Positions 1 to 26,249 of a DNA stretch of 64,000 nt are shown here, piece by piece. The stretch comes from an uncultured Paracoccus sp. (lineage in GTDB: Bacteria > Pseudomonadota > Alphaproteobacteria > Rhodobacterales > Rhodobacteraceae): assembly GCF_945915435.1 (NCBI RefSeq), contig NZ_CAMEFG010000009.1, positions 1 through 64,000 on the forward strand, written 5' to 3'. The notes beneath the pieces were generated by a model, which searched no databases, was not told where the DNA came from, and was given only the letters and a program-made list of their open reading frames with translations. The first letter of the stretch is position 1, and every line of letters starts with the position of its first letter. The position numbers and the translations under genes are program-made.

Positions 1-1054
1 TGTCGCCCGCCAAGGGCAGCTTGACGGTGTTCAGCCAATAGTCCCGGTCGCCGGTATCCTCGCCCGCCGCCTTGTCCGCCGCGATCTTGTGCAGCATTGC
101 GTCGCGGACCTCTGCCGGGTCTGACTTCCGCACCGCCGCCATGTTGCGGACGGGCGGACCCCCGGCAATATGCGCTGGCGGACTCTGCGCGGGCGCAGCA
201 GGGGCCACGCCCCGCCCGACCAAGGGCTGACCACCAGAAAACCCAACTTGCCCGTCAGCGGGCCGCCCCGTGGTTCCTGTGGGCATCGCCTGCCCGTCAA
301 GAGAAGGTGATGGCGGCGTTGCTGGTGCCATTTGTGCAGGCTGGGCGGGCCGATTATTCGCCTTGTTCGCCTCGGCAAAATCAGCCCGTAACCGTTCCAG
401 ACGTGACGCGGGCACGACGGCCAACTGGTCAAGGCGCAGATCGCCCCCTTCCAGCGTCTGATAGGTTCCTCGCTGCACAGCGGCTGGCGAAGTTTCCGGC
501 ACTTCCTTTCCATCGCGATCATAGAAGATCGTTCCCGCGACCAGCGCACCGCCTTTGGACAGAAATTCCAGCTTCGCCCCGTCATCGGTGCCCAGCGCCT
601 TTGATCCTGTAGCACGAACAGTCGCCCCGTCCATGAGAACGAACAATCGCCAGCCGCGTGGGGTGCGCCCCACAATGCAGCGCCCCCGTAGTTCTGCTAG
701 CAGCCCAAAGAAAACCTGCCCGAGAGGGTGAGAGGCCCAATCCGCATCATTCATGGTCACGCGCTTGGGTGGGTCCAGATCGAAGCCGAACAGATGCACC
801 ACCCGGCCATCCGACAGCCGGTATTCCCCCAGCCTGATGCCCATGCGCCCGGCATTGGCGTCCCATTGCATTGAAGCAACGGCCTGCGGGTCGCTGCTGG
901 CGTTATTCCAACCGCCGGTGTCGGCGGCGGGTGCCTTTTTGAATGTAGCGGGCAGCATAGCGTAGCCCTTGGCCGCCAGTTCAAGCGCCTGATCCCGCAG
1001 GGATTTGGCAGCATTCACTTGCCCCTGTGGGGTGATTGAACTATGGTTGTTCAT
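1..1054 (-). CDS. Bifunctional primase-polymerase (prim-pol)-like replication protein, C-terminus beyond window edge
   Basis: Manual translation from ATG at 1054 stays open for 351 codons to base 1 (MNNHSSITPQGQVNAAKSLRDQALELAAKGYAMLPATFKKAPAADTGGWNN...FGFDLDPPKRV...GRTPRGWRLFVLMDG...). DxD-like motif and RTPxGxR-like motif; absent from the ORF track because it has no stop in the window. Confidence 0.6.
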   Translation of the reverse strand, partial: MNNHSSITPQGQVNAAKSLRDQALELAAKGYAMLPATFKKAPAADTGGWNNASSDPQAVASMQWDANAGRMGIRLGEYRLSDGRVVHLFGFDLDPPKRVTMNDADWASHPLGQVFFGLLAELRGRCIVGRTPRGWRLFVLMDGATVRATGSKALGTDDGAKLEFLSKGGALVAGTIFYDRDGKEVPETSPAAVQRGTYQTLEGGDLRLDQLAVVPASRLERLRADFAEANKANNRPAQPAQMAPATPPSPSLDGQAMPTGTTGRPADGQVGFSGGQPLVGRGVAPAAPAQSPPAHIAGGPPVRNMAAVRKSDPAEVRDAMLHKIAADKAAGEDTGDRDYWLNTVKLPLAGD

Positions 1055-1122
1055 AGACGTAAACTTTCGTTTGCGCCTCGCCGGGCGCTGTTTCTGGTTG
1101 ATATGTCGGGATAGACAAGAAG

Positions 1123-1150
1123 CGCCCCCGCAGCTGCCGCGGCGGGGGCG
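1123..1150 (-). terminator. Putative intrinsic terminator/attenuator between the 191-aa ORF and the prim-pol ORF
   Basis: 9-bp perfect stem CGCCCCCGC / GCGGGGGCG, 10-nt loop, followed on the minus strand by CTTCTTGTCT. Confidence 0.5.
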
Positions 1151-1155
1151 TTCGG

Positions 1156-1731
1156 TCATTTAGGCAAGAGCGTCTCGCGCAACGCCAGCAAGACACCGTG
1201 TCCTATCCGCCAATGGTGAAAGAGCGCAAACAGTGCCGCAGTCAGTTGTTCGGCATCCCTTCTGGCCTCTGCCTTCCGCGCTTCCGGGTCGTAATGCATC
1301 CCCACACGGCCACCGTCTTGAGCGAGAAACACCGACTGGCGCAGGTTGTCTGCCGCTTGCACAGCCTTCACCCCATACAAGGCGAGGTAATGGGCTGTCT
1401 GGTCGGCCACCGAGTGATCGACGCCCGCCCGTATCTTCGCCATTGTGATTTCCATCGCGCTGGCTGCCGCTGTGAGGTTTGCCGCAGCCAGCGCCTCGGC
1501 AGTTTCGGCTTGTTCGCGGGCGTCCCGCAACGCGGTCCATTGCAGCCAAGCCGCGTGTTCCGCTGCCCGGTCAGCTTCGCGTCTGGCCTTTTCCTGTTTA
1601 GCGGCTGCCGCTTCCTTTTCCGCCTGTTCCTTGCGCTGTGCCGTGGATCGTTCCAGCGCTGCGAGCAGGGATTCAGTGCTGTCGTCGACGTCGTCGTTGA
1701 TTAAAGACGGTGATTGAACTTGGACAGTCAT
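1156..1731 (-). CDS. Hypothetical protein with an Ala/Glu-rich probable coiled coil
   Basis: 191-aa ORF 12 nt downstream of alpA; charged heptad-rich N-terminal half; no family recognised. Confidence 0.6.
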   Translation of the reverse strand: MTVQVQSPSLINDDVDDSTESLLAALERSTAQRKEQAEKEAAAAKQEKARREADRAAEHAAWLQWTALRDAREQAETAEALAAANLTAAASAMEITMAKIRAGVDHSVADQTAHYLALYGVKAVQAADNLRQSVFLAQDGGRVGMHYDPEARKAEARRDAEQLTAALFALFHHWRIGHGVLLALRETLLPK

Positions 1732-1743
1732 TGCCCCACCCCC

Positions 1744-1974
1744 TCACGCCAGCCGCCCGGCAAGGGCGTCGTCAATGATCGACACGGGCCAGCGGGTTGA
1801 ACCAGCGATACGGACGGGCTGGATTTTTCCATCCTTGGCCCAACGCCAGATCGTGCTGGGCGCGACGCGCAGCCGCGCTGCCAGTTCCTTGACCGTCAGC
1901 AGTTCAGCGTCGGCAGGCAGCGGGGGCACCCCTTGCGGCAGACGAAAAAGGGTGAAGGGCGTTGCGTGTTGCAT
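1744..1974 (-). CDS. AlpA-like helix-turn-helix regulator/excisionase
   Basis: 76 aa, LLTVKELAARLRVAPSTIWRWAKDGKIQPVRIAGSTRWPVSIIDDAL, a typical AlpA/MerR-type excisionase fold motif. Confidence 0.85.
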   Translation of the reverse strand: MQHATPFTLFRLPQGVPPLPADAELLTVKELAARLRVAPSTIWRWAKDGKIQPVRIAGSTRWPVSIIDDALAGRLA

Positions 1975-2064
1975 GTTCTGTCCTTTCAGGCTGTGTGCCG
2001 CAGGTTGCGCGGCATCTGTCTGAAAAGGTGGCGTCCAAGCCCGTTTGCTTCAATGGAATCCTAT

Positions 2065-2091
2065 GCTTACAGAAATGCCTATTCTGTAAGC
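2065..2091. promoter_or_regulatory. Perfect palindrome, candidate repressor/AlpA operator upstream of alpA
   Basis: GCTTACAGAA-ATGCCTA-TTCTGTAAGC: 10-bp arms, 7-bp spacer. Confidence 0.55.
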
Positions 2092-2696
2092 CAGATGGCG
2101 CGTAGCACCTTTATCAACTTGCGCCGTTCGTCGTCTGCCGATCCCACAAGCCCGTTGCGGTCGCACAGTGACAGATATTCACCCGCCCATTCCGGCGGGG
2201 TTTTGCCCGCTTCGCGAAACAGACGTTCGAGTTCTGCCGCCTTGTCGGCGTTGTCGCGGGCCAGTGCCGCCGCCAGCGTTAGCTGTTCAGGAAAGGCGAA
2301 CCCGCCAAGTCCGCGCTGAAACGCCTGAACCTCATCCGGTGACGGAACGCCCCCGTCGTGCCCGCCGTAGCGGTTTCTGATCCATCGGGTTAGTTTCTGT
2401 TCCCCCGGCGGGTGGTCCAGCCCGTCGCCGCGCAGATTGTTTGCCAGAACCTGCACCGACCACAGCCCCAACCGCTTGCCCCAGTCCGCCGCGCCAGCCA
2501 GTGCGGCCCGCTGCGCCCGCAAATCCCGTGAAAGGTTCCCTCTGCCGACAGGGGCAGCAGCCATGACACGCGCCAGAAGTGCCCGGCGGGGTTCATAGTC
2601 CAGCGAACAGGACGGCGTGTGTGCAAGATCGCGCTTCATTGCGGCAATGATCCCCTGCCAATCTTCGGCGGCCAGCTTGTTCTTTGCGCCCGTCAT
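2079..2696 (-). CDS. Hypothetical protein, translationally coupled to the integrase
   Basis: 205-aa ORF; its ATG overlaps the integrase stop (2693-2696); no family recognised. Confidence 0.65.
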   Translation of the reverse strand: MTGAKNKLAAEDWQGIIAAMKRDLAHTPSCSLDYEPRRALLARVMAAAPVGRGNLSRDLRAQRAALAGAADWGKRLGLWSVQVLANNLRGDGLDHPPGEQKLTRWIRNRYGGHDGGVPSPDEVQAFQRGLGGFAFPEQLTLAAALARDNADKAAELERLFREAGKTPPEWAGEYLSLCDRNGLVGSADDERRKLIKVLRAIWLTE

Positions 2697-4021
2697 CCCG
2701 TCACCCTTGATAGGGGGGCGATAGGCACCACGTTCGCGCTACCGTCCGCGTCGCCCCGGTCCAGCCGGGTAACGCCCTTGTCGATCCACCCCGCCCATGT
2801 CTGCATCAGCTTGCGTCGCTTGGTCAGGTGGCCGGTGCGCAGGTAGGCCGCTTCCACCTTGTCGGCATTGACATGGGCCAGCGCCGCCTCGGCAATCTCA
2901 CGGGGAAAACTGGTCTGTTCCGCGCACCAGTCACGGAAGGCCGACCGAAGCCCGTGCATGGTCGTCCGGTCCCGCCAGCCCATGCGGTCCAGCAGGACCA
3001 GCATCGCCATGTTTGATAACCCCACGGGTTTACCGCCCTTCCAGCGCGGGGCGGGAAAGATCGGCGCATCCGCTGCACCTCCGGTCAGCGGCTTGGCCCT
3101 TTCAAGAAGGGTGATGGCCTGCGGCACCAGCGGCACGACATGTTCACGCCCGGCCTTCATCCGCGACGCGGGCACCCGCCAGACCGGCCCGCCTTCCGCC
3201 TGCATTTCGATCTCGCCCCACGTCGCCCCGATCACTTCCCCGGTGCGGGCGGCGGTCAGCACCAGCCATTCCGCCGCCAGCGCCGCGACGCTGTCGCCCT
3301 GCCGCGCCCGAAGGGCATGAACGAACGCAGGCACATCCTTCCACGACAGCGCCCGCTGGTGGATCACACGGGCGGCCTTGGGCATGGCCCCCAGCAAAGG
3401 TTCAAGCCCTCCCTTCCAGATCGCCGGGTTGGGGTCTGTGCGGTCGCCTGCGGCAATGGCGGCATCCATCACCCTTTCGATCCGCCCGCGCAGCCGGGTC
3501 GCGGTCTCGGGCTTCTTGCGCCAGATCGGTTCCAGCACCGCCAGAACATCCGCCCGCGTGACCTGTGCCACGGGCTTGTCGCCCAGCGCAGCGGCATCCT
3601 TGAGAAGTGTAGCCCGCCACTGGTAACGATGCTTGGCGTTGCGCCAAGCGTGCTCATGCGTCGCGATGTAGCGTTCCGCCCATAGCGCGAAGGTTGCCGC
3701 CTTCACCCTTTTTCTTTCCTGTTCGGCTTCGGCCTGCGCTTCCCGCGCTGCGTCACGCTTGTCGATTGGATCGAAACCATGCGCCAGATGGTCACGCGCC
3801 GCAGCGGCCAGCTGTCGGGCGTCCACCAGCGCAACGCCGCCCTTACCGGCAACGCCAAGCCCCATTTCCCGGCGACGTCCTGCCGGGCTGGTATAGATGA
3901 ACGACCACTTGCGCCGCCCGTCCTGTGCGACGATCAGGTAAAGCCCGCCGCCGTCGCTGTGCTTTCCTGCTGCCGCTGTCTCGACCGTTCGGGCGGTCAG
4001 CCGGTTTAATGTTCGGGCCAT
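2693..4021 (-). CDS. Tyrosine-type recombinase/integrase, P4-type with DUF4102-like N-terminus
   Basis: 442 aa; N-terminal MARTLNRLTARTVETAAAGKHSDGGGLYLIVAQDGRRKWSFIYTSPAGRRREMGLG; C-terminal R...HGLR...H...Y catalytic pattern. Confidence 0.95.
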   Translation of the reverse strand: MARTLNRLTARTVETAAAGKHSDGGGLYLIVAQDGRRKWSFIYTSPAGRRREMGLGVAGKGGVALVDARQLAAAARDHLAHGFDPIDKRDAAREAQAEAEQERKRVKAATFALWAERYIATHEHAWRNAKHRYQWRATLLKDAAALGDKPVAQVTRADVLAVLEPIWRKKPETATRLRGRIERVMDAAIAAGDRTDPNPAIWKGGLEPLLGAMPKAARVIHQRALSWKDVPAFVHALRARQGDSVAALAAEWLVLTAARTGEVIGATWGEIEMQAEGGPVWRVPASRMKAGREHVVPLVPQAITLLERAKPLTGGAADAPIFPAPRWKGGKPVGLSNMAMLVLLDRMGWRDRTTMHGLRSAFRDWCAEQTSFPREIAEAALAHVNADKVEAAYLRTGHLTKRRKLMQTWAGWIDKGVTRLDRGDADGSANVVPIAPLSRVTG

Positions 4022-4072
4022 TCTCTCACCTTTTCCTTGCTTGCCATCGTGCCGGGCGCGGCGGGCGGGCGC

Positions 4073-4110
4073 TGTGGGGTTGAGGGTCCAGCCCCACAGT
4101 CAGCCCCACA
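4073..4110. repeat. Iteron-like repeats: two direct CAGCCCCACA copies plus one inverted 9/10 copy
   Basis: TGTGGGGTTG (4073-4082), CAGCCCCACA (4089-4098), CAGCCCCACA (4101-4110). Confidence 0.7.
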
Positions 4111-4350
4111 ATTATGCTGCGATCTGGTGAGAGGTCAAGAGTCTGCACGAGACAGTATCGGAGTATAAACTACAGATAAACATAAATATTAATGAGTTTT
4201 AAGATGCCGCCTGCGATAATAGGAAACATCAGTGTGGCGGACCTCGGCTCCACCAGTTCCATCCCCCGCGATCCCGGAAAACTTGCGCTTGTGGTTGGGC
4301 TTGGCCATGCTGGGCCATATTGCAGTGCATTTTCAAAAAGGGGGACGACC

Positions 4351-6087
4351 ATGACGATGATTTCCCGATTCCGGCTGTCCGGCGCGGCGGGTTTGCTGGC
4401 GGCGCTGTCCATGCCCGCCGCGGCGCAAGAGGCCGCGATCTATTCCGGCATGGACCGCGTTCATCCGGTCTGGGCCGAGAACGGCATGGTGTCGGCCCAG
4501 GAACAACTCGCGGCCGAGATCGGACGCGATATCCTGGCCCAGGGCGGCAATGCCGTCGATGCGGGCATCGCGGTCGCCTTCGCGCTGGCCGTGACCCTGC
4601 CGCGCGCGGGCAATCTGGGCGGGGGCGGCTTCATGCTGGTCCATGACGCCGAAAGTGGCGAAACCCACGCCATCGATTATCGCGAGATGGCCCCGGCGGG
4701 CGCGACCCGCGACATGTTCCTTGACGCCGAGGGCAATGCCGACAGCGAGCTGTCGCGCTATTCCGGCGCGGCCTCGGGCGTGCCGGGGACGGTGGCGGGG
4801 ATGAAGCTGGTCCATGACGAATACGGCTCGATGGACTGGGCCGAGATCGTCGCCCCCGCGATCCGCTTGGCCGAGGAAGGCATCACCGTCACCCCCGACC
4901 TGGCCGACAGCCTTGAGGCGATGCAGGAACGGCTGACACATTATCCTTCGGCTGCCAGGATCTTCTACAAGGAAGGGGGCGAGTTCTATCGCCCCGGCGA
5001 CACGCTGGTTCAGGCCGATCTGGCCAATACGCTGCGAAAGATCGCCGAGGAAGGCCCGGACGGTTTCTATCGCGGCGAGGTGGCCGAGGCCATCGCCCGC
5101 GCCGTCACCGAGGCGGGCGGCGACATGACCACCGAGGACCTGGCGAACTACCGCGCCGTCACGCGCGAGCCGGTGCGCGGCACCTATCGCGGATATGAAA
5201 TCGTCTCGATGCCGCCGCCGTCCTCGGGCGGCATCCACCTGATCCAGATCCTGAACGCGCTGGAGGGCTATCCCATCGGCGCGCTTGGCGAGAATTCGTC
5301 CGAGACGATCCACCTGATGGCCGAGGCGATGAAGATCGCCTATGCCGACCGCTCGGAATATCTGGGCGACCCGGATTTCGTCGATGTGCCGGTGGATGCG
5401 CTGACCGGCAAGGATTACGCCGCCGAGATGCGCGCCCGCATCAACACAGGCTTCGCGACGCCTTCGGAACTGATCCGCCCCGCCGATCTGGCGCCTTACG
5501 AATCCGACCAGACGACGCATTATTCGATCATCGACAAGGACGGGAACGCGGTCTCGAACACCTACACGATCAACTTTTCCTATGGGTCGGGGCTGGTGGC
5601 CGAGGGCACGGGCGTGCTGATGAACAACGAGATGGACGACTTTTCCGCCAAGCCCGGCGTGCCCAATGCCTACGGGCTGATCGGCGGCGATGCCAATGCA
5701 GTCGAGGCGGGCAAGCGCCCGCTGTCCTCGATGACGCCGACGCTGGTTCTGCGCGATGGCGAGATCTGGCTGGTCACCGGCTCGCCCGGCGGGGCGCGGA
5801 TCATCACCACGGTCTTGCAGGTCGTGATGAACATGATCGACCACGGCATGAACGTGGCCGAGGCCAGCCATGCCCCGCGCATCCATCACCAATGGCTGCC
5901 CGATGAGCTGCGCATCGAACAGGGCATCAGCCTTGACACGCAGCGCGCGCTTCAGGCCAAGGGGCACCGGCTGTCACTGGAAGAGGTCATGGGTTCGACC
6001 CAATCGGTCATGCGCGACCCGGAAAGCGGCGTCCTGCTGGGCGCCTCGGACCCCCGGCGGGCGGGTGCTGCGACGGTGGGTTACTGA
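4351..6087 (+). CDS. ggt: Gamma-glutamyltransferase precursor
   Basis: GNAVDAGIAVAFALAVTLPRAGNLGGGGFMLVHD, internal TTHYSIIDKDGNAVSNTYTINFSYGSG autoprocessing region; signal peptide MTMISRFRLSGAAGLLAALSMPAAAQ supports the start at 4351. Confidence 0.95.
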   Translation: MTMISRFRLSGAAGLLAALSMPAAAQEAAIYSGMDRVHPVWAENGMVSAQEQLAAEIGRDILAQGGNAVDAGIAVAFALAVTLPRAGNLGGGGFMLVHDAESGETHAIDYREMAPAGATRDMFLDAEGNADSELSRYSGAASGVPGTVAGMKLVHDEYGSMDWAEIVAPAIRLAEEGITVTPDLADSLEAMQERLTHYPSAARIFYKEGGEFYRPGDTLVQADLANTLRKIAEEGPDGFYRGEVAEAIARAVTEAGGDMTTEDLANYRAVTREPVRGTYRGYEIVSMPPPSSGGIHLIQILNALEGYPIGALGENSSETIHLMAEAMKIAYADRSEYLGDPDFVDVPVDALTGKDYAAEMRARINTGFATPSELIRPADLAPYESDQTTHYSIIDKDGNAVSNTYTINFSYGSGLVAEGTGVLMNNEMDDFSAKPGVPNAYGLIGGDANAVEAGKRPLSSMTPTLVLRDGEIWLVTGSPGGARIITTVLQVVMNMIDHGMNVAEASHAPRIHHQWLPDELRIEQGISLDTQRALQAKGHRLSLEEVMGSTQSVMRDPESGVLLGASDPRRAGAATVGY

Positions 6088-9047: not shown

Positions 9048-9107
9048 AACGGCATGGTCTTAGCCGCAAAGGGACGGGGATGAAAGCCGAAAAAGCCTGT
9101 GCAGGTC

Positions 9108-9596
9108 CTAGTCGCAGGGCGCTGCGGCGCGGTCTTGCGGAACGCGGGGATGGGCCATCGCCGCGCCGGGCTTCAGGCCAAGGCGGGCGGCCTCGCCCCC
9201 CGCGATCTCGACGACCATCAGTCGTGCGGGATCGGGATCGCCGGGGCGCGCGCCGGGGATCGGGGTCTCGTCCAGCGGTTGGGCCATCGGGTGGATATGG
9301 CGAATGACCCCCTGCGCGTCCAGGAAGATCATGTCCAGTGGAATCAAGGTGTTGCGCATCCAGAAACTGACCGGGCCGGGCTGTTCGTAGACAAACAGCA
9401 TGCCTTCGCCCCGCGGCAGTTCCCGACGGAACATCAGGCCCTGCGCACGGGCCTGCGGGGTGTCGGCCAGCTCGACCCGGATCGTCACCGGATCGTTGTC
9501 GGTCAGGAAAACGGCCTTATCGGCTTCGCAGGCGACACCGGCCAACGCAGGCAGGGCCGGGAAAGCCATCATCAGCGCCGTGGCAAGCGTCCTCAT
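9108..9596 (-). CDS. DUF192 family exported protein
   Basis: RAQGLMFRRELPRGEGMLFVYEQPGPVSFWMRNTLIPLDMIFLDAQGVIRHI. Confidence 0.9.
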   Translation of the reverse strand: MRTLATALMMAFPALPALAGVACEADKAVFLTDNDPVTIRVELADTPQARAQGLMFRRELPRGEGMLFVYEQPGPVSFWMRNTLIPLDMIFLDAQGVIRHIHPMAQPLDETPIPGARPGDPDPARLMVVEIAGGEAARLGLKPGAAMAHPRVPQDRAAAPCD

Positions 9597-10192
9597 GCGC
9601 CCCCGACGACCAGCCGGGGCTTGTGCGTATGGGATTCGCCCGAGGGGTCCGAATCCGCCTCGTCCCCGCCCGTCACCCGGTCCCATGCGATGACCTGCGC
9701 GGCCATCAGGCCGCGGCGCCCTTCGACCACGCGCAGGGCGATCGCCTCACCCACGGTCAGGTCGGCGAAACCGCAATGGCGCAGGACCTCGATATGCAGG
9801 AAGACATCGCCCTTTTGCGAAAAGATATTGGCAAAACCAAAGCCCTTGGCCTTGTCGAACCATTTGACGCGGGCAGGCAGCAGGGGCAGCCGCTCAAGGT
9901 CCTCGGGGGCGGTGCCGTCCAGGTCCGCGATGGGCGGCGCCGCGCCGGGGGCGGCGGGCGGCTCGATCGACAGCACCTCGACCGCCTGCATCCCGCGCGA
10001 GGTGTTTTGCGCGATCACCTCGACCCGCGCGCCGTCGGCGACCGAGCTTTGCCCGAAATTGCGCAGCACGTTGGCATGCAGCAGCACATCCGAACTGCCG
10101 TCGTCCACCGCGAGGAATCCGAATCCCCGCGCGGCGTCGAACCACTTTATCACGCCTGAAACAGGGCGTTTCTGGCCTTCGGATTCGTTCAT
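9593..10192 (-). CDS. Protein with two cold-shock domains
   Basis: GVIKWFDAARGFGFLAVDDGSSDVLLH and RVKWFDKAKGFGFANIFSQKGDVFLHIE. Confidence 0.93.
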   Translation of the reverse strand: MNESEGQKRPVSGVIKWFDAARGFGFLAVDDGSSDVLLHANVLRNFGQSSVADGARVEVIAQNTSRGMQAVEVLSIEPPAAPGAAPPIADLDGTAPEDLERLPLLPARVKWFDKAKGFGFANIFSQKGDVFLHIEVLRHCGFADLTVGEAIALRVVEGRRGLMAAQVIAWDRVTGGDEADSDPSGESHTHKPRLVVGGA

Positions 10193-10342
10193 AGTTCTCG
10201 CGTTGCCTTTCTTGGTCCGGCGGCAAAGGTCGATCTAAGGGACCACAGCCCCATCAAACTCTCAATCACAAATGTGGATATGAGCGTAAACCGAGCCTTC
10301 ATGGTCAGGTTGTCCTTACCATGAATTTATCAGGGCCGGGAA

Positions 10343-11005
10343 TCAAGGGGCAAGACGCGCAATTCGCCACGTTCCCGACCGAGATTCCGTCCACCCCTGC
10401 GGCAAGCCGTTGTCCGGCCTGTCGATTTTCCGCCGCACCCATTTGAAACGATCATGCAGGCGGAAAGCGCCGTCGGCCCAGAACTCGATCTCGCGCGGGC
10501 GGATGCGGTAGCCGCCCCAGCAGGCGGGGCGCGCGGGATGCGATCCAAGGCTGCGTTTGCCTTCTTCGACGGCAGAGATCAGCGTATCGCGGCTGTCCAA
10601 CAGGCGGCTTTGCGCCGAAGCCCAGGCCCCGATGCGCGAATCCAGCGGGCGCGAGTCGTAATAGGCGTCAGACTGCGCCGACGGCGCGCGGGTCACGTCG
10701 CCGCGAACCCGAATCTGCCGGCGCAGGCTTTTCCAATGCATGACGAAGGCGGCGGTGCCGGTATCCTCGATCTGCCGCCCCTTGGCGCTTTCGTAATTCG
10801 TATAGAAAACGAAGGTGCCGTCCTCGTCCTGCCCTTCGATTTCCTTGAGCAGGACAACCCGCACATCGGGCAGGCCCTGCGCATCGACGGTTGCCAGGGC
10901 AACGGCGTTGGGGTCGTTCGGCTCGGCCGATTCCGCCTCGGCAAGCCAGCGGCGCGCGATCTCGAATGGATCGTCGCCTGCGAAAATTCCGTCACGCTCA
11001 TTCAT
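10343..11005 (-). CDS. pdxH: Pyridoxamine 5'-phosphate oxidase
   Basis: [44 protein letters not shown]...[14 protein letters not shown]...[14 protein letters not shown]. Confidence 0.95.
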
Positions 11006-11089
11006 TTCTTCGTCGCTCCTGACCTTGATGCCCCGCGGCACTTGGCCTAATCCATGACCTCATGGGTAAAAACCGCGAGAGGCAAGGAT

Positions 11090-11917
11090 ATGTCAAGCAA
11101 TGGCGGCCTGGAATTGATGAAGGGTAAACGCGGCCTGATCATGGGGCTGGCGAACGACAAGTCCATCGCCTGGGGTATCGCCAAAGCCCTTGCCGGCGCA
11201 GGCGCCGAACTGGCCTTCTCCTACCACGGAGAGGCGCTGAAACGGCGCGTCGATCCGCTGGCCGCACAGATCGGTTCGGATTTCGTGCTGGAATGCGACG
11301 TCGCCGACGAAGGCTCGATCGACAGGCTGTTCACCGAACTGGGCCAGCGTTGGGACAAGCTGGACTTCGTGGTCCACGCCATCGGCTTTTCCGACAAGGA
11401 GCAGTTGCGCGGCCGCTATGCCGATACGACGCGCGACAACTTCCTGATGACGATGGACATCTCCGTCTTTTCCTTTACCGCCGTCGCGCGCCGGGCCGCT
11501 GCGATGATGACCGACGGCGGCAGTATGCTGACCATGACCTATTACGGGGCCGAGCGCGTGATGCCCCATTACAACGTCATGGGCGTCGCCAAGGCCGCGC
11601 TCGAGGCGTCCGTGCGCTATCTGGCCGAGGATTTCGGCAAGGACGGCATCCGCGTCAATGCGATCAGCGCCGGGCCGATCAAGACGCTGGCGGCCAGCGG
11701 CATCGGCGATTTCCGCTATATCCTGAAATGGAACGAGCTGAACTCGCCCCTGCGACGCAACGTCAGTCAGGAAGAGGTCGGGCGGTCCGCGCTTTACCTG
11801 CTGTCCGATCTGGGTTCCGGCGTCACGGGCGAGACCCATCACGTCGATGCGGGCTATCATGTCGTCGGCATGAAGGCGGTCGATGCGCCGGATATCGAGA
11901 CGGTGAAGAAAGACTGA
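11090..11917 (+). CDS. fabI: Enoyl-[acyl-carrier-protein] reductase (NADH)
   Basis: GLIMGLANDKSIAWGIAKALAGAGAELAFSY...MTYYGAERVMPHYNVMGVAKAALEASVRYLAEDFG...GPIKTLAASGI. Confidence 0.97.
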   Translation: MSSNGGLELMKGKRGLIMGLANDKSIAWGIAKALAGAGAELAFSYHGEALKRRVDPLAAQIGSDFVLECDVADEGSIDRLFTELGQRWDKLDFVVHAIGFSDKEQLRGRYADTTRDNFLMTMDISVFSFTAVARRAAAMMTDGGSMLTMTYYGAERVMPHYNVMGVAKAALEASVRYLAEDFGKDGIRVNAISAGPIKTLAASGIGDFRYILKWNELNSPLRRNVSQEEVGRSALYLLSDLGSGVTGETHHVDAGYHVVGMKAVDAPDIETVKKD

Positions 11918-11957
11918 CCCCCGTGGGCCGCCGCCCCGATGCACCGAGGCAAGGCGG

Positions 11958-12560
11958 ATGAGCGCCGAACAGGTCCTGACGCTGTTCGGCGCGCTTTCAC
12001 TGGCGATCCTGACGCCCGGTCCCGCGATCATCGCAACCGTTCAGGCGGCCTTTCAGCGGGGCCGCGCCCATGCCCTGCCCTATGCGATGGGGCTGGCCCT
12101 GGGCGCCTCGCTGTGGTGCCTGATGGCGCTGGCGGGGCTTGCGGTGGTCTTTCGGCTGAACCCGCTGCTGTTTGCGTCGCTGAAGGTGTTTGGCGGGTTC
12201 TATCTGCTGTGGTTCGCATGGGCGCTGTGGCGCGCCTCGACGCAGCCCCTGCCTGCGCCTGCGGGCGGCGTGCGCCGGGGCTTTCTGGGCGGCATCGCGC
12301 TGAACCTGTCGAACCCCAAGCCCGCGCTGTTCTACGCCACGCTGATCCTGTCGGTCTTTCCCAACCCCCTTGGCCACGTCCAGCAGGCGGCGGTCTTCGG
12401 CCTTTGTCTTGCGACCGAAGTCTTCTGGTATGGGCTGGTCGCAATTGGCATGTCGACAGCGGCAATGCGGCTGCGCTATTTCTCGGCCAGATTCTGGATC
12501 GACCGGGCGGCCGCTGCGGCGATGGCGGCGCTTGGTGTGATCCTGATCCTCAACCACTGA
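11958..12560 (+). CDS. LysE/RhtB family translocator
   Basis: Hydrophobic 200 aa with [34 protein letters not shown]. Confidence 0.88.
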
Positions 12561-12574
12561 AAGGACCCCCTTCG

Positions 12575-13072
12575 ATGATCGACCCCCTGCCCCATGAGCG
12601 CGGCTTTCACATAAGCTGGGACCAGATCCATCGCGATTCCCGCGCGCTTGCATGGCGGCTGGAGGATCGCCAATGGCGCGCCATTCTGGCGATCACGCGC
12701 GGCGGGCTGGCCCCGGCGATGATCGTCGCACGCGAGCTGGACATCCGCGTGATCGACACGATCTCGGTCAAGTCCTACCACGGCAAGGGCGGGCAGGAAC
12801 GGGGCGACGTGAACGTCCTGAAAGCCCCCGACCCCGCCGTGATGCAGGACGGGGACGGCATTCTGGTCATCGACGATCTGGTCGATTCGGGCCGCACGCT
12901 GGAGCATGTGCGCAAGATGTATCCCAAGGCCCATTTCGCCACCGTCTACGCCAAGCCCAAGGGCCGCCCGATGGTCCAGACCTATGTGACCGAGGTGAGC
13001 CAGGACACCTGGATCTTCTTCCCCTGGGACATGGCCCTGCAATACGTCCAGCCCTATCGCGGCGAGGATTGA
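12575..13072 (+). CDS. gpt: Xanthine(-guanine) phosphoribosyltransferase
   Basis: [35 protein letters not shown]...[38 protein letters not shown] at 12575. Confidence 0.92.
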
Positions 13073-13178
13073 GGGCGGGCCCGCCGGCAGACCGAGCGGT
13101 AAGCCCTTGTCCCCGTCATCGCCGGCGATCCCCTTGCCACGCAAACATGCCTGCATATGAAGCTGTCAAAGGTTCTGA

Positions 13179-13856
13179 ATGGCGATTGTCCTCATACCCG
13201 GTTTCATGCTGGACGTAGACCTCTGGTCCGACATTTCCCATGATCTCGAACCTTTCGGCCCCATCATTCATGCCGATCCGGCGCATGCCGGCTCCATTGA
13301 AGAGATGGCCGCCCAAACCCTTGCCGCCGCGCCCGGTGCGTTTACGATCATCGGCTTTTCGATGGGCGGCTATGTCGCGCGCGAGGTGCAACGCAAAGCG
13401 CCTGAGCGCGTGTCGAAACTCGTGTTGATCGCGACTTCGGCGCGGGGCGATGGCACGGTTCAGGCACAAAGGAAAGCTACGGTTGCCGCAGCGGGCCTTT
13501 CCACGTTCCGGGGGCTGAGCAAGGCGTCCATACGCCGCTCGCTGGCCCCGGATCATCGGGACGAGGCAGTCATCATCGACAGGATACAGGCGATGGGCAT
13601 ACGATTGGGGGTAGAGGTCTTTCGCCGCCAAGCCCTGTTCAGGCGCGACGGCGACCTGAAGGATCTGCCTGCCATCACCTGTCCGACGCTGATCGTCGCA
13701 GGCAGCAAGGACCGGCTGCGGTCTCTGGATGAATCCGCGGAAATGCATGCGGCAATCCCGAACTCACGGATTGAGGTCGTGGAGGCAGGGCACATGATCC
13801 CGATCGAGGCACCTGCGGCGTTGTCGGCCCCGCTGCGCGATTTTCTGACCGGCTGA
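13179..13856 (+). CDS. Alpha/beta hydrolase
   Basis: IGFSMGGYVAREV nucleophile elbow; GHMIPIEAP terminal His region. Confidence 0.88.
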   Translation: MAIVLIPGFMLDVDLWSDISHDLEPFGPIIHADPAHAGSIEEMAAQTLAAAPGAFTIIGFSMGGYVAREVQRKAPERVSKLVLIATSARGDGTVQAQRKATVAAAGLSTFRGLSKASIRRSLAPDHRDEAVIIDRIQAMGIRLGVEVFRRQALFRRDGDLKDLPAITCPTLIVAGSKDRLRSLDESAEMHAAIPNSRIEVVEAGHMIPIEAPAALSAPLRDFLTG

Positions 13857-13908
13857 GATCTTTCCACCCGACAAACATCCACGCCACCCGCGCACCGGAC
13901 GCCCGCCC

Positions 13909-15411
<1,503 letters not shown>

Positions 15412-15413
15412 GA

Positions 15414-17399
15414 TCACATCCGGGATTTGACGGCATCCACGGCGGCCTGGTTCACCGTCGGGTTCAGCCGGGTCTGAATGGCGCGCGTATAATATTCAAA
15501 CAGGTCCGATTGCAGCCCGTCGGACAGTTGGCGCGAGACCGCGTCGCGCACCTGCTCGGCCTCGTCCGTGGTCAGGTCGACCGGGTTGATGCGGTCCAGC
15601 GCGACAAGAAAGACGCGGCGGTCGGCATCGACCACCTCGGCCTCGCCCGGTTCGGACAGCTCGAACGCGCCCGAGACCAGCGCGGCAGGCGCGCCCTCGA
15701 CAAAGCCGCTGCGGGACAGGGCGGCGACCTCGTGCCAGTCCTCGATCTCGGGGGCGGCCAGCACAAGGGGCGCGCCCGATGCAAGCGGCGCGACGATCTG
15801 CGCGGCGCCGGGCACCGGCGCGGGATTGGGCTGGATCGCATCCGGGGCCGGGGCCGCCTCGCCCTGTTCGTCACGGGCCGCGCCGCCGATCGAGCGGGCG
15901 ACGGCATTCACCTTCAGCTCATCGGCAAGGGCCAGCAGGCGGCGATGGGTTTCGCTGGCCTTCCAGTCCTCGGCCACGCGGTCGCGAACCTCGTCCAGCG
16001 GGATCAGGCTGGGCGGCACGATCTCGTCCAGTTGCAGGATGAAAAGGCCCCCGTCGTCCAGTTCGCGCACCTCGGGAAAGTCCTGTTCGCTCACCGCGGC
16101 GGCGGCCTCGCGGAAGGCGGGGTAGCCCGCGATGCTGCCATGTTCCGGCGTCATCGAGGCGTCCCAGTCGATCCGGCCCAGTTCCATGTCGGTCTCGGCG
16201 GCCAGTTCCTCAAGCGTCGCGCCGCCTGCCAGCAGGTCGTCAAGCTGCATGCCCAGATCCTCGATCAGGCGGCGCGCGCGGTCCAGGCCCGCCTCGCCGC
16301 GCAATTCGGGGATGGCCTGATCAAAAGGGATGTCCACGGGCTCGAGGATCGCGTTCATGGAATAGAGCGCGGGGCCGAAATTGCTGGGCAGCGGTCCGAT
16401 AATGCCGGGTTGTTCAAGGGCAAAGACCTCATCCCCCGCGGCGCCAAGGGATTCGCGGGTCGCCTCGCCCAGGTCGATATCGGCCAGCGACAGGCCGCGT
16501 TCGGCGCCCAGTTCCTCGAAGGAAAGCTCGCGCGCCTCGACGCGGGCCTTGCCGGCCAGGGCGGCGTCCTCGCTTTCAAAGACGATGCGTTCGACCATGC
16601 GCCGCTCGGGGCGCTGGAACTCGTCGATGCGGCGTTCGTATGTGGCGCGCAGCGTTTCCTCGTCCAGCTCGACGCTGCCCTCGATCATGTCGGGGTTGAT
16701 CCAGGCATAGGTGATCCGGCGCATCTCGGGCGCGGTGAAGCGGTCGGCATTGGCCTGATGCCATGCCTCCAGCGCCGAATCGTCGGGTTCCTCGACCGGG
16801 TTGGGCAGGTCGCCGGCGGTCAGTTCGTGCCAGCGGATGTCGCGGGTTTCCAGCAGCCAGGTGGTCCAGCGGTCCACCATCGCATCGCCCGCATTGGCCC
16901 CGCTGGCGACGGCGCGCTGGATCATCGCCCGCGCCTCGTCCATGCGAATCTGCTGTTCGAACTGCGCGACGCTCAGCCCTTCCTGGCGCAGCACATTGGC
17001 ATAGACCGCCGAATCGAAATTGCCGCCGATGCCGCGAAAGGCCGGGGCGGCAAGGATCTGGTCCGCCACCGCCTGGTCGCCGATCGAGACGCCCAGCCTG
17101 CGGGCCTGTTCTTCCAGCGCGGCGGCCAGGAAAAGGCGGCGCAGCACGTTGTCGGGGATGCCGACCGCCTGCGCCTCGGCCCCGGTCATCATGCGGCCGG
17201 TCTGCGCGGCAAAGGCGCGCATCTCGCCGTCCACGGCGCGGGAATAGTCGTCGGCGGTGATCCGAACCTCGCCCACCTGCCCCACGTTGGAACCGCCGCC
17301 CGAGAAGTTCTCGATCCCGAAGCCCCCAAGGCCAAGCACGAGCAACCCCATCAGCACCCAGACGATGGTCGATTTGCCTTTCGACTTGGCCTTGCTCAT
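15414..17399 (-). CDS. PpiD/SurA-N domain peptidyl-prolyl isomerase-like membrane-anchored chaperone
   Basis: N-terminal single TM, SurA_N-type region, PPIase-like repeats, 661 aa. Confidence 0.85.
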   Translation of the reverse strand: MSKAKSKGKSTIVWVLMGLLVLGLGGFGIENFSGGGSNVGQVGEVRITADDYSRAVDGEMRAFAAQTGRMMTGAEAQAVGIPDNVLRRLFLAAALEEQARRLGVSIGDQAVADQILAAPAFRGIGGNFDSAVYANVLRQEGLSVAQFEQQIRMDEARAMIQRAVASGANAGDAMVDRWTTWLLETRDIRWHELTAGDLPNPVEEPDDSALEAWHQANADRFTAPEMRRITYAWINPDMIEGSVELDEETLRATYERRIDEFQRPERRMVERIVFESEDAALAGKARVEARELSFEELGAERGLSLADIDLGEATRESLGAAGDEVFALEQPGIIGPLPSNFGPALYSMNAILEPVDIPFDQAIPELRGEAGLDRARRLIEDLGMQLDDLLAGGATLEELAAETDMELGRIDWDASMTPEHGSIAGYPAFREAAAAVSEQDFPEVRELDDGGLFILQLDEIVPPSLIPLDEVRDRVAEDWKASETHRRLLALADELKVNAVARSIGGAARDEQGEAAPAPDAIQPNPAPVPGAAQIVAPLASGAPLVLAAPEIEDWHEVAALSRSGFVEGAPAALVSGAFELSEPGEAEVVDADRRVFLVALDRINPVDLTTDEAEQVRDAVSRQLSDGLQSDLFEYYTRAIQTRLNPTVNQAAVDAVKSRM

Positions 17400-17497
17400 G
17401 GTCTTGTCCCGCTTTCCTTGTTCGTTGCGCCGTCTTTAGGATGCCGCTTCGGGTTGAGCAAGCGAAACGCGGCATTCCACCGAACGACAAGAGGCGA

Positions 17498-18673
17498 TCA
17501 GGGGCGGAAGGCGGCAAGGCGGGACATCAATTCCGCGATAGCATCGGCATCGACATTGGCAAAGGCGATCCGAACATGCTGATGCCCCGTCGGGTCGCCT
17601 TCTGGCATGAACATCGTGCCGGGCAGAAGCAGCACGCCCGCCTCGCGCACCAGCCGCTGCGCCAGTTCGGCCGAGGACAGCCCCCAGGGGTGGCGCGCCC
17701 AGGCGAAATAGGCGCCGCAGCCCTTGACCTGCCAGCCCTCCAGCCTGGCCATGCCCGCCGCCATCGCATCGCGGCGGCGCAGGACCTCGGCCCGTTCGCC
17801 CGCAAGCCAGCCGCGCAGGTTGGCCATGCCCCATGCCGCGCCGATCTGGCCAAGCTGGCCGGTCGAGATCGCGACGGTGTCCAGGAACTTCTCAAGCTGC
17901 ACCATGCGCGCGGTGCTGGCGACGATGGCGCCGACGCGGTGGCCGGTCAGGCGATAGGCCTTCGAGAAGGAATAAAGCTGGATCAGCACATCGCCCCAAT
18001 CGGGATCGCCGAAAAGGTCGTGCGGCGCGCCTTCGCGGCTGTCGAAATCGCGATAGGTTTCGTCCACGACCAGCGCGATCTTCCTGTCGCGGGCCAGTTC
18101 GAAAAAGGCGCGCAGCGTCGCGGCGGGATATTCCGCCCCCGAGGGGTTGTTGGGGCTGACCAGCACGATGGCGCGGGTGCGCGGGCCGATCAGCCGGGCG
18201 GCGTGATCGGCGTCGGGGATCATGCCGGGACCGCAGGGCAAGGGCACCGCGCGGACGCCCTGCATGTCCAGCCACATCTTGTGGTTGAAATACCACGGCA
18301 CCGGGATGACGACCTCATCCCCCTGCCCGGCAAGCGAGGCCAGCGCGGCGCAGAACGCCTGGTTGCAGCCCTGCGTGATCGCGACCTGGGCGGGCTGGAC
18401 GTCCGCCCCATAAGCGGCGGTCCATTCGGCGGCGACTGCCTCGCGCAGGTCGGGGTTGCCAAGGACGGGACCGTAAAGATGCGCCTGCGGCAGTTCCAGC
18501 GCAGCCTGGGCGATGGCGCGGCGCAGCCCCTCGGGCGGCGGCTCCAGCGGCGCGGCCTGGCTGACGTTGATCAGCGGACGGTCGGGCGGAAAGGCGACAC
18601 CATCGAGCCAGCGCCGCGCCTCCATCACCGGGGGGCGGAAGGTCTGGGCGAAGGTCGGGTTCAGGGGCAGCAT
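17498..18673 (-). CDS. PLP-dependent class I/II aminotransferase
   Basis: LVSPNNPSGAEYP, VDETYRDFD, SFSKAYRLTGHRVGAIV (PLP lysine). Confidence 0.92.
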   Translation of the reverse strand: MLPLNPTFAQTFRPPVMEARRWLDGVAFPPDRPLINVSQAAPLEPPPEGLRRAIAQAALELPQAHLYGPVLGNPDLREAVAAEWTAAYGADVQPAQVAITQGCNQAFCAALASLAGQGDEVVIPVPWYFNHKMWLDMQGVRAVPLPCGPGMIPDADHAARLIGPRTRAIVLVSPNNPSGAEYPAATLRAFFELARDRKIALVVDETYRDFDSREGAPHDLFGDPDWGDVLIQLYSFSKAYRLTGHRVGAIVASTARMVQLEKFLDTVAISTGQLGQIGAAWGMANLRGWLAGERAEVLRRRDAMAAGMARLEGWQVKGCGAYFAWARHPWGLSSAELAQRLVREAGVLLLPGTMFMPEGDPTGHQHVRIAFANVDADAIAELMSRLAAFRP

Positions 18674-18682
18674 ATGGTTGCT

Positions 18683-19318
18683 CTAGTTGCGGGGGGTCAG
18701 GCCCAAGCTGCCGATATCGGGCGGCAGGAACAGGTTCGGCGCAAGCGAGGGGACCGTGCCTTCGCCATCCGTTTCGCCGTCATCCGGCACGGGCGCGGTT
18801 GGGGGCACGGACGGGGACGGGGGCAAATCCCCGGACATGGGCGGTTGGGCGGCGGGCAGCGCCGGGGCCTCGCCGGGGTCGGGGGCGCGGTCGGCATCGG
18901 GCATCGGCAGGCCGCCGGGCCGCTCTGCCGCTGCGGCCCGGTCGCCGCCCTGCGCGGGCAAGGCGGGTGCCGTGGTCTCGGTCGCCTGGACCTGCGCGGT
19001 CGGGACGGTGGTTGCGGGCAGGGGCTGGTCCCCGACCTCGGCCGCCGGGCGGGGGGCGGGTTCCGATGCGGCGGCGGGCGGTTGCAGGGGCGCGGCATTG
19101 CGCGCACCGATCGGATGGGGCGCATCGGGCGCAAGCGGCGCCGGATCGCCGTCGTGGGTCCGGCCCGCACCGCGCAGCTCGGGCGCATCGGCCTGCGGCG
19201 CGCCCTGGGGCGGGGCAAGGTCCGGCACCGGCGGCGGCAGGATCAGGGACGCCGCCGCCAGCGCGAATGCGCCCAGCAATGTCCCGTGCAACAGTCCCGC
19301 CCCAAAGCCTCGCGCCAT
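18683..19318 (-). CDS. Proline/alanine-rich membrane-anchored protein, possibly an orphan N-terminal part of a divergent polysaccharide deacetylase-like protein
   Basis: MARGFGAGLLHGTLLGAFALAAASLILPPP anchor followed by a low-complexity P/A region; no catalytic domain downstream. Confidence 0.5.
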   Translation of the reverse strand: MARGFGAGLLHGTLLGAFALAAASLILPPPVPDLAPPQGAPQADAPELRGAGRTHDGDPAPLAPDAPHPIGARNAAPLQPPAAASEPAPRPAAEVGDQPLPATTVPTAQVQATETTAPALPAQGGDRAAAAERPGGLPMPDADRAPDPGEAPALPAAQPPMSGDLPPSPSVPPTAPVPDDGETDGEGTVPSLAPNLFLPPDIGSLGLTPRN

Positions 19319-19435
19319 CTTGCCGCCTGTCCGATACCAGCTTTTCTGACCGCGCGGGGTTGACCCGCCACGGCCCTTTGGCACATCTATAGCGGCAGTT
19401 TTTCCGGGGTTCATCCCCCAATAGCAAGGGCCACC

Positions 19436-20029
19436 ATGATCCTGCTGATCGACAACTATGACAGCTTCACCTGGAATCTGGTCCATTACATGGGCGAGGC
19501 AGGGGCAAGGGTCGAGGTGCGCCGCAACGACGCCCTGACCGTGGACGAGGCGCTGGCAAGCGGCGCCTCGGGCATCCTGATCTCACCCGGTCCATGCGCG
19601 CCGTCGCGGGCGGGCATCATCGTGCCGCTGATCCGCGCAGCCGCCGAACGGGGCTTGCCGCTCTTCGGCGTCTGCCTTGGCCATCAGGCCATCGGCGAGG
19701 CCTTCGGCGGCCATGTCATCCGCGCGGGCCGGGTCGTGCATGGCAAGGTCGATGAAATCGCCCATGACGGCAAGGGCGTGTTCGAGGGCCTGCCCTCGCC
19801 CTTCAAGGCGACGCGCTATCACTCGCTGACCGTGGACCCCGACAGCCTGCCCGAGGCGCTGGAGGTCACGGCGACCAGCCCCGACGGCACGATCATGGGC
19901 CTGCGCCACCGCAGCCTGCCGGTCGAGGGCGTGCAGTTCCACCCCGAATCCATCGCATCCGAACATGGCCACCAGATGATCCGAAACTTCCTGCGCCGCT
20001 GCATGAACCTGTCGGGCGAGGCCGCATGA
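19436..20029 (+). CDS. trpG: Anthranilate synthase component II
   Basis: [15 protein letters not shown]...[16 protein letters not shown]...GVQFHPESI. Confidence 0.97.
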
Positions 20030-21051
20030 GCGCGCCGGTGGACATTCGCCCGATCATCGGCCTGGCCGCGGAACGCTCGCTGACCGGGGACGAGGCCGAA
20101 GCCGCCTTCGCCGCCCTGTTCGAAGGCCGCGCGACCCCGGCCCAGATCGGCGGGCTGCTGATGGCGCTGCGCGTGCGCGGCGAAACGGTCGAGGAAATCA
20201 CCGCCGCCACCCGCGCCATGCGCGCGCGCATGAACCGCATCACCGCACCCGAGGGGGCGATGGATATCGTCGGCACCGGCGGCGACGGCAAGGGGACGCT
20301 GAACATCTCGACCGCCTCGGCGCTGGTCGTGGCGGGGGCGGGCGTGCCGGTCGCCAAGCATGGCAACCGCAACCTGTCGTCGAAATCGGGTTCTGCCGAC
20401 GCGCTGTCGCATCTGGGCATCGACATCATGTCCTCGCCCGAGGTGGCGCAGGCCACGCTGGACGCCACCGGCATCTGCTTCATGATGGCGCCCGTCCACC
20501 ACCCCGCGATGCGCCATGTCGGCCCCGCGCGGGCCGAGTTGGGAACCCGCACGCTGTTCAACCTGCTGGGACCGCTGACCAACCCCGCCGGGGTGCGGCA
20601 CCAGTTGACCGGGACCTTCGACCGCCGCTGGAACCGTCCGATGGCCGAAACTCTGCGCGATCTCGGCACCCTCTCTGCCTGGCTGGTCCACGGCGGCGAC
20701 GGCACGGATGAGCTGTCCATCGCCGGACCAAGCTGGGTCGCCGCGCTGAAGGATGGCGAGATCGCGGAATTCGAGGTCTCACCCGAGGATGCCGGCCTGC
20801 CCGTCCACCCGTTCGAGGCGATCATCGGCGGCGATCCCGCACGGAACGCTGCCGCCGCCCGTGCGCTGCTGGACGGCGAAAAGGGCGCCTATCGCGATGC
20901 GGTGCTGCTGAACTCGGCCGCCGCGCTGCTGATCGCGGGCCGCGCCACCGACCTGCGCGAGGGGGTCGAGATCGCGCGGCAATCCATCGATTCGGGCGCG
21001 GCCAAGGCCAAGCTGGCCGCGCTCGTGGGCCACTCCGGCGCCCCGGCATGA
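20026..21051 (+). CDS. trpD: Anthranilate phosphoribosyltransferase
   Basis: [48 protein letters not shown]. Confidence 0.97.
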
Positions 21052-21704
21052 CCCCGCCCGAGGCATGGGCCGACCTGCCCTTCTTCGCCCGCGACTGGCC
21101 CGCGATCCGCGACCGTTTGAGCGGCGACTGGTTGCCCGGTCCCGCGCGCCTCTTCGCCGCGCTGGACCTGACCCCGCCCGAGAAGGTCCGCGTCGTCCTG
21201 CTGGGGCAAGACCCCTATCCCACCCCCGGACATGCGAACGGGCTGGCGTTTTCGGTTTCCGAAACGACGCCCCTGCCCCGGTCCCTGCGCAATATCTACA
21301 AGGAAATGCAGGACGACATCGGCGCTTCCCCCGCCAGCGGCGATCTTGCTCATTGGGCGCGTCAGGGGGTGCTGCTGCTGAATACCTCGCTGTCGGTTCC
21401 GCCCGGTCAGGCAGGTGCGCACGCGAAATGGGGCTGGGGCAGGCTTGCGCGCGAGGCCGTCACGCGCGCGCAGGAACTTCGTCCGCTTGCCTTCCTGCTT
21501 TGGGGGGCACATGCGCAAAAGGCCCTTGCCGGGCTGCCGCGACCGCAGGATCTGGTGATCGAAAGCGCGCATCCCTCGCCCCTTTCCGCGCGGCGGGGCT
21601 TCTTCGGGTCGCGCCCCTTCAGCCGGATCAACGACTGGCTGGCCGCGCGGGGCGAGGCACCGATAGACTGGGCGGGGCTTTCCCGCCGCGATTTGCAGGG
21701 TTAG
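21048..21704 (+). CDS. ung: Uracil-DNA glycosylase, family 1-like
   Basis: [22 protein letters not shown] ... LLWGAHAQ ... [24 protein letters not shown]. Confidence 0.92.
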
Positions 21705-21712
21705 GTTGAGAC

Positions 21713-22504
21713 ATGGATATTCTGGACCGCATCAAGGCCTACAAGCTGGAAGAGATCGCCGCCGCCAAGGCCGCCCGCCCTCTGTCGGGCGTCGAGGATC
21801 TCGCCCGCGCCGCCGACGCCCCGCGCGGCTTTGCCCGCGCGCTACGCGACAAGGCCGCCACCGGCCACGCGCTGATCGCCGAGATCAAGAAGGCCAGCCC
21901 CTCGAAAGGGCTGATCCGCCCCGATTTCGACCCGCCCGCGCTGGCCCGCGCCTATCAGGCGGGGGGCGCGGCCTGCCTGTCCGTGCTGACCGACGCGCCC
22001 AGCTTTCAGGGCGCGCCCGAGTTCCTGACCGCCGCCCGCTCCGCCTGCGAGTTGCCCGCGCTGCGCAAGGATTTCCTCTATGACCCCTATCAGGTGGCCG
22101 AAGCCCGCGCATGGGGCGCCGATTGCATCCTGATTATCATGGCCTCGGTCGACGACACGCTGGCGGCGGAGCTTGAAGACGCCGCCTTCCACTGGGGCAT
22201 GGACGCGCTGATCGAGGTTCACGACCGCGCCGAGCTGGACCGCGCGCTGCGGCTGAAATCGCCGCTGATCGGGGTGAACAACCGCAACCTGCGCACATTC
22301 GAGGTCAGCCTGGACGTGACGCTGGACCTTGCGCCCCATGTGCCCCCGGACCGCGATCTGGTCTGCGAAAGCGGCCTTTTCGCCCCCGCCGATCTGGACC
22401 GGATGGCTGGGGCCGGGATCAACCGCTTCCTGATCGGCGAAAGCCTGATGCGGCAGGCCGACGTGACCGCCGCCACCCGCGAGATCCTGGGACTGGCGGC
22501 ATGA
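21713..22504 (+). CDS. trpC: Indole-3-glycerol phosphate synthase
   Basis: [41 protein letters not shown]...[13 protein letters not shown]. Confidence 0.97.
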
Positions 22505-22974
22505 GCCTGACACATTTCGACAATCGCGGGCAGGCCCATATGGTCGATGTATCCGGCAAGGCGGAAACCGCGCGCATGGCCGTGGCCGAGGGGGTCGTGA
22601 TCATGGCGCCCGAAACGCTGGCGCTGGCGCAGGGCGGCGCGGCCAAGGGCGACGTCATGGGCGTGGCGCGGCTGGCCGGGATCATGGGGGCCAAGCGCAC
22701 CGCCGACCTGATCCCGCTGTGTCACCCACTACCGCTGAGCAAGGTCGCCATCGAACTGACCCCCGACCCCGCCCTGCCCGGTATCCGCGTGACCGCCACC
22801 GCCGCCACCACCGGCCGCACCGGCGTCGAGATGGAGGCGCTGACCGCCGTTTCCACCGCCTGCCTGACCATCTACGACATGCTCAAGGCCGCGCAAAAGG
22901 ACATGCGGATCGAAGGCATCCGCCTGCTGTCGAAAACCGGCGGAAAATCCGGCGATTTCAAGGTGGAAGCATGA
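22501..22974 (+). CDS. moaC: Cyclic pyranopterin monophosphate synthase
   Basis: [29 protein letters not shown]...[13 protein letters not shown]...[12 protein letters not shown]. Confidence 0.97.
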
Positions 22975-24143: not shown

Positions 24144-24194
24144 CAAAAAATTCCCTGTTGTTAACCATTTGTTCAGAGGAATCTGCTCTGTTCG

Positions 24195-24234
24195 TTGACG
24201 GATGGGGTGAACGCCTCTAGAACATAAGTCGAAC
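24195..24234 (+). promoter_or_regulatory. lexA promoter with overlapping tandem LexA (SOS) boxes
   Basis: GAAC-GCCTCTA-GAAC-ATAAGTC-GAAC at 24209-24234 (two overlapping GAAC-N7-GAAC boxes); candidate -35 TTGACG (24195-24200) and -10 TAGAAC (24218-24223) with 17-bp spacing. Confidence 0.85.
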
Positions 24235-24266
24235 AGATTTGATCGGGCGGGTTTAGGGAACAGAAC

Positions 24267-26237: not shown

Positions 26238-26249
26238 GCCGGCCTTTCC

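Follow-up and report, generated by a model that had tools for sequence, protein, structure and literature searches.

At the left edge of a 64,000-nucleotide window of an uncultured Paracoccus genome (the window is the whole stretch analysed, bases 1-64000 of contig C9, whose base 1 is the window start) lies one end of a 10,558-bp island integrated at a tRNA-Ala(GGC) gene. We are nearly certain that this is a complete integrated mobile island, and we favor, with a probability of roughly 55%, the reading that it is an undescribed satellite-like integrative island that works like a phage satellite, with packaging by a phage. The element, its ends and its gene content are established, as is a decayed sibling in the same genome (G000; 89 contigs, ~89% complete), and what had been half-seen as a gene block is now an element bounded on both sides, with ends that can be tested. 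A limited literature search returned no satellite described for this lineage.

The window part of the island is a co-oriented block that the first-pass annotation had described as integrase, 205-aa orphan, AlpA-like helix-turn-helix (HTH) protein, 191-aa orphan, and prim-pol-like open reading frame (ORF) beside ggt, and all five ORFs are found in place on the minus strand. Protein family searches against Pfam and PHROGs bear out the naming of the 442-aa P4-type tyrosine integrase (2693..4021), which carries PF13356 Arm-DNA-bind_3, PF22022 Phage_int_M, and PF00589 Phage_integrase above cut-off and matches phrog_1 at 1.2e-45. Its best relatives in the genus are ~46% identical. Overlapping the integrase stop by 4 nt (ATGA) is the 205-aa orphan (2079..2696), which belongs to no family in four libraries (Pfam, PHROGs, NCBIfam, and PADLOC). 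Searches of plasmids, phages, IMG/VR, genome contigs, and 298 genomes of the family gave no relative, and its structure model was unusable (predicted local distance difference test [pLDDT] score, 41.5). The 76-aa HTH protein (1744..1974) matches HTH_17 (PF12728; 43 bits, 5.1e-11) and, as best PHROG, phrog_66 “excisionase and transcriptional regulator” (1.3e-10). Because Pfam Phage_AlpA itself was unmatched, we call this excisionase-like protein AlpA-like rather than AlpA. Between it and the primase sits the 191-aa orphan (1156..1731), which overlaps the primase start by 4 nt (ATGA), with no family above cut-off and no relative in a pattern scan of IMG/VR; its matches to DUF6033 and RT_XIII were dismissed as low-complexity and below cut-off.

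The block ends in a primase-helicase whose Prim-Pol part (2..1159; PF09250, 29.1 bits against a cut-off of 22.8), called prim-pol-like from the start, comprises the N-terminal 386 of 883 aa and is truncated where the contig ends. The C-terminal VapE-like helicase part is on the minus strand of a second contig, C44 (30283-31830; PF05272, 2.3e-50). When the 205-aa, 191-aa, and 181-aa proteins (the last introduced below), the integrase, and the VapE part were used in pattern scans of IMG/VR and genome contigs, no close relatives emerged; the VapE part reached nine distant viral contigs. Single-protein scans of this kind detect close relatives only, and relatives of the orphans were sought in genome samples. 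On its other side the block is followed by ggt (PF01019, 5.6e-188). The ggt start at 4192 is a mechanical ORF start only, since homology in relatives begins at ~4369. An ARAGORN tRNA-Thr call within the ggt coding sequence (5833-5921, minus strand) was rejected as probably spurious, as the Rfam tRNA model did not support it.

Since the first base of the window is also that of its contig, the left cut of the block reflects assembly and not biology. The final 55 bases of C44 are identical to window bases 1-55, an overlap typical of assembly graphs, and this 55-mer junction occurs at no other place among the contigs retrieved. The truncated primase agrees with the C44 end at 100% over its last 18 residues, and joining C44 and C9 gives an unbroken 883-aa frame across the junction. 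The exact overlap, the continuous primase ORF, and matching attachment site (att) repeats thus place the right 4.26 kb of the island at window 1..4255 and its remainder at C44 25473-31830, the contig end.

The second att site, which the first-pass annotation had proposed to seek leftward, is found on C44 at tRNA-Ala(GGC) (25397-25472). Here, attL (C44 25459-25472) is formed by the last 14 bases of the tRNA gene, CCTCGGCTCCACCA, and attR (window 4242..4255, plus strand) is a 14-bp copy of this tRNA 3' end between the integrase gene and ggt. When the spacer between these two genes was resampled (first-order, n=2,000), the tRNA end shared no 14-bp word with it in any case, the longest being 11 bp, so the block edge carrying this copy is more than chance (0/2,000). 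Inside both ends we observe a tandem CAGCCCCACA repeat (window 4089..4112, plus strand; tRNA-side copy at C44 25515-25538), of the form CAGCCCCACAG(C/T)CAGCCCCACAAT and absent elsewhere in the joined 43.8 kb. These repeats are placed as expected for integrase arm sites and probably serve as such. The integrase gene lies at one end of the island, whose GC content is lower, with 61.3% versus 66.5% and 64.3% in its flanks. In those relatives of the genus in which tRNA-Ala(GGC) was located behind the FYDLN_acid gene, the sequence downstream varies from genome to genome, which makes this tRNA gene look like an integration hotspot. Synteny with ggt was rejected as an empty-site marker: the region upstream of ggt is unconserved in the genus, and in the relatives checked ggt does not follow tRNA-Ala.

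Read from the tRNA toward the integrase, the island holds the C44 genes, the primase-helicase, and then the 191-aa orphan, the AlpA-like gene, the 205-aa orphan, and the integrase. The cargo, which had been presumed to lie outside the window, is located on C44 and fills the far third with a 148-aa orphan (25835-26281, minus), a broken IS5-type transposase (26329-26981, plus; no terminal inverted repeat at its ends), a PrsW-family membrane protease of 390 aa (27036-28208, minus), and a 141-aa SnoaL-like protein (28365-28790, minus) with a weak match below cut-off and a signal-peptide-like N terminus. A 78-aa ORF (28808-29044, minus) and the gene of a 181-aa protein (29297-29842, minus) separate these from the primase-helicase. 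No head, tail, lysis or other structural gene was recognized among the ten predicted genes by Pfam, PHROG or NCBIfam, and no relaxase, coupling protein or type IV secretion system (T4SS) gene in the complete island. The defense and capsid-remodeling cargo for which a search had been suggested was likewise not recognized on the island (PADLOC in the case of defense), with packaging represented by a structure-level hint of a small terminase (TerS).

This hint comes from the 181-aa protein, for which Pfam, PHROGs, NCBIfam, PDB, phages, and plasmids yielded no match by sequence. Its AlphaFold2 single-sequence model (pLDDT, 75.5) predicts a three-helix HTH-like N-terminal start followed by long helices. 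Phage small terminases share this layout of an N-terminal HTH and then long helices. In a Foldseek search against viral models the top hit is a TerS (E 0.059; probability, 0.89), with TerS making up 6 of the top 50 hits, and nothing significant was returned from PDB. The TerS identity of this protein is a lead, not a result, drawn from a predicted fold; if it is a terminase, it would represent a packaging gene outside the reach of present profile searches. A genus sample gave one weak match, running across stop codons, and a family-wide sample gave relatives only within its own genome. An IMG/VR locus (L104) was rejected as a relative, because the matching frame runs antisense to a terminase gene.

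The relative within the genome is a frameshifted copy of the 181-aa gene that runs across the ends of two contigs, C30 and C75, with a 55-bp overlap between them. It belongs to a 1.8-kb sibling remnant (C30:1-624 plus C75:1-1213; L068, L069) between tRNA-Arg(TCT) and tRNA-Ser(CGA), with DNA identity to the island of ~82% over the left end and the 181-aa gene. Directly behind the tRNA-Ser 3' end, the sibling is 82% identical to the left end of the island, arm-site region included, and a CAGCCCCACA-type repeat is present near the tRNA-Ser. As a partner att, neither the tRNA-Ser end nor the tRNA-Arg end was found repeated. The remnant indicates that the genome has probably received two or more such elements, at different tRNA genes, and, as judged from the shared sequence, the left end of the island probably travels with the 181-aa gene.

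In the mechanism we propose, the island would integrate at the 3' end of tRNA-Ala(GGC), with the integrase recombining the 14-bp att core and tandem arm sites guiding it at both ends. The level of the AlpA-like protein would rise on a signal from the helper, in analogy with two phage satellites: PICMI115, one of the phage-inducible chromosomal minimalist islands (PICMIs) of Vibrionaceae, in which excision needs alpA, int, and iolg, alpA in trans suffices as the trigger, and prim drives replication (PMC10803314), and the Escherichia coli phage-inducible chromosomal island (PICI) EcCICFT073, in which AlpA is the activator (PMC6092414). The AlpA-like protein, probably together with the int-overlapping 205-aa protein, would then trigger excision of a circle by the integrase, and the Prim-Pol/VapE primase-helicase would copy this circle. 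By the same analogy we infer the control of excision and the replication step. A helper phage would finally package the circle, possibly selecting it through the TerS-like 181-aa protein of the island. Packaging is the unproven step of this scheme: of the satellite module suggested in the first-pass annotation, the core of integrase, AlpA-like protein, and primase is borne out with both att sites, and helper packaging stays an inference.

The genome holds two further clusters. A separate 11.8-kb island occupies tRNA-Arg(ACG) (L158:4753-16593; C33 ~16752-28592) with a 17-bp att repeat, AATGGCGGACCCGGAGC, and encodes a primase/helicase, TerS (phrog_57), the large terminase subunit TerL gpA, a lambda-type portal, a protease-capsid fusion, a head-tail adaptor, a head decoration protein, an AlpA-like protein, and an integrase. 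No tail gene was recognized in it, and its layout resembles that of capsid-forming PICIs (cf-PICIs). On contig C3, a gene transfer agent (GTA)-like cluster (L157 ~9088-17600) encodes a terminase large subunit (Terminase_6N/6C) and a prohead protease; it is consistent with a Rhodobacteraceae-type host and could package DNA of the chromosome, including the island.

Several points weigh against a phage-packaged satellite at tRNA-Ala. Gene overlaps of 4 nt are frequent in bacteria. The likeness of the 205-aa and 191-aa genes to iolg and up1 of PICMIs is one of position, no capsid-remodeling gene was recognized in the island, and no helper phage was identified. The TerS assignment is not significant, with no Foldseek hit at E <= 0.001 and TM-scores of ~0.3, and finds no PDB, Pfam or PHROG match. 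The adjacency of C44 and C9 is deduced from the overlap and not from reads. Related int/AlpA/VapE loci with methyltransferase cargo, moreover, also fit a defense island. This last point leads to a plain tRNA-borne integrative island of the defense or cargo type. Equipped with a P4-type integrase and a replication gene of its own, it would not be adapted to a helper phage and would move passively by generalized transduction, GTA or transformation. Such an island is a serious rival because the core layout recurs with variable cargo, and we regard it as possible rather than probable. It agrees with the type II or III methyltransferases carried by similar int/VapE loci of the family, with the related integrases (E <= 1e-30) in 67 of the 125 genus genomes, with the GTA-like cluster in the same genome, and with an island that has no secure packaging gene. 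However, AlpA-like protein, primase-helicase, and int-overlapping gene together form the layout of elements with demonstrated phage induction (PMC10803314, PMC6092414), PADLOC finds no known defense gene in the island, and the 181-aa protein shows a TerS-like fold hint.

The prophage and integrative and conjugative element (ICE) alternatives raised earlier are disfavored because the complete island has no recognized structural, tail or conjugation genes. A degraded prophage that retained the genes for integration and replication but not the structural ones could explain the phage relatives of the integrase and VapE-type helicase, as well as some decay in the form of the broken IS5-type transposase, but we judge it unlikely: the att sites and the arm repeats have stayed intact at both ends, none of the core genes is broken, the ten predicted genes include no recognized structural remnant, and the layout of int, overlapping gene, AlpA, and primase recurs as a compact island in another genome. 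Integrases of this type that target tRNA genes serve ICEs and integrative mobilizable elements (IMEs) as well. An IME carried by a conjugative helper would share this integrase type and might bear an oriT alone, yet the relaxase, coupling protein, and T4SS genes went unrecognized in the complete island, and we consider this reading very improbable. We also judge unlikely an undescribed satellite family of this lineage with a highly divergent TerS of its own, living on one chromosome with the unrelated cf-PICI-like island, whose capsids could package it with the help of a tail donor phage; it would be a satellite exploiting a satellite.

Among known systems, PICMIs share their gene order with the satellite-like island. 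PICMI115 is arranged as int-iolg-alpA-up1-prim (PMC10803314), and here we observe int, an int-overlapping gene (4-nt ATGA), an AlpA-like gene, one gene, and the primase, with the 205-aa and 191-aa orphans in the positions of iolg and up1. An int-overlapping gene is frequent, although not universal, in PICMIs, and the 205-aa ORF matches it in position and ATGA overlap. AlpA assigned by HTH_17, direct repeats at the ends, and no recognized capsid-remodeling gene are further likenesses, and the co-located int and AlpA of the PICMI model (PF00589; PF05930 or PF12728) are present as PF00589 and PF12728 above cut-off. In contrast, the island measures 10.6 kb versus ~6-7 kb, possibly encodes a TerS, and resides in another host group. 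Instead of a DUF3987 (PF13148) or DUF5906 (PF19263) primase it has a Prim-Pol/VapE protein (PF13148 has no match in the genome at E <= 0.001; PF19263 reaches 23.4 bits, below the 27.6 cut-off), and its att is the tRNA-Ala(GGC) 3' end rather than a fis-adjacent site. By site and primase family, the island is not a PICMI under the published model.

With Gram-negative PICIs such as EcCICFT073 (PMC6092414) the island shares int, an AlpA-type regulator, a primase-replication gene, and a specific att. It differs in its att site and in that no PICI-specific packaging or interference gene was recognized; its membership among Gram-negative PICIs would depend on phage-dependent induction and on packaging into phage-like particles. 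Some of them have their own TerS, for which the island offers the candidate 181-aa model (viral hit, E 0.059). Like the island, P4-like satellites combine an AlpA-like regulator and a primase-helicase with a P4-type integrase that sits at a tRNA gene, at a size of ~11 kb, but the island has no matches to the P4 capsid-size and late-gene proteins psu, sid, and delta (Pfam, PHROG, NCBIfam) and a Prim-Pol/VapE primase. Unlike in cf-PICIs, no capsid, portal or terminase genes of its own were recognized. By gene content, the island is not P4, a cf-PICI, a complete prophage or an ICE/IME.

A similar layout is found in a genome of the same family (G355), where an island at tRNA-Phe (L122:5875-14541) has a P4-type int, an overlapping orphan (4 nt, TTGA), AlpA, a VapE primase, and cargo last. 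It differs in its cargo of a C5-cytosine methyltransferase and a HATPase-domain protein and in that no extra gene of at least 55 aa is listed between AlpA and the primase, which resembles that of our island over the VapE domain only (~41% identical). The methyltransferase and the HATPase protein, the latter unnamed by PADLOC, may be a defense pair. Related int/VapE loci in the family carry other methyltransferases. As the same core stands at tRNA-Phe in this relative and other int/VapE loci are alike, the layout is a recurring kind with varying cargo. The kind is already known, in that the family includes similar int/AlpA/VapE islands carrying methyltransferases as cargo, and our island is a variant of it. 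This suggests a wider use of the core of int, overlapping gene, AlpA, and primase seen in Vibrio PICMIs, in combination with other primases, other cargo, and sites at tRNA genes.

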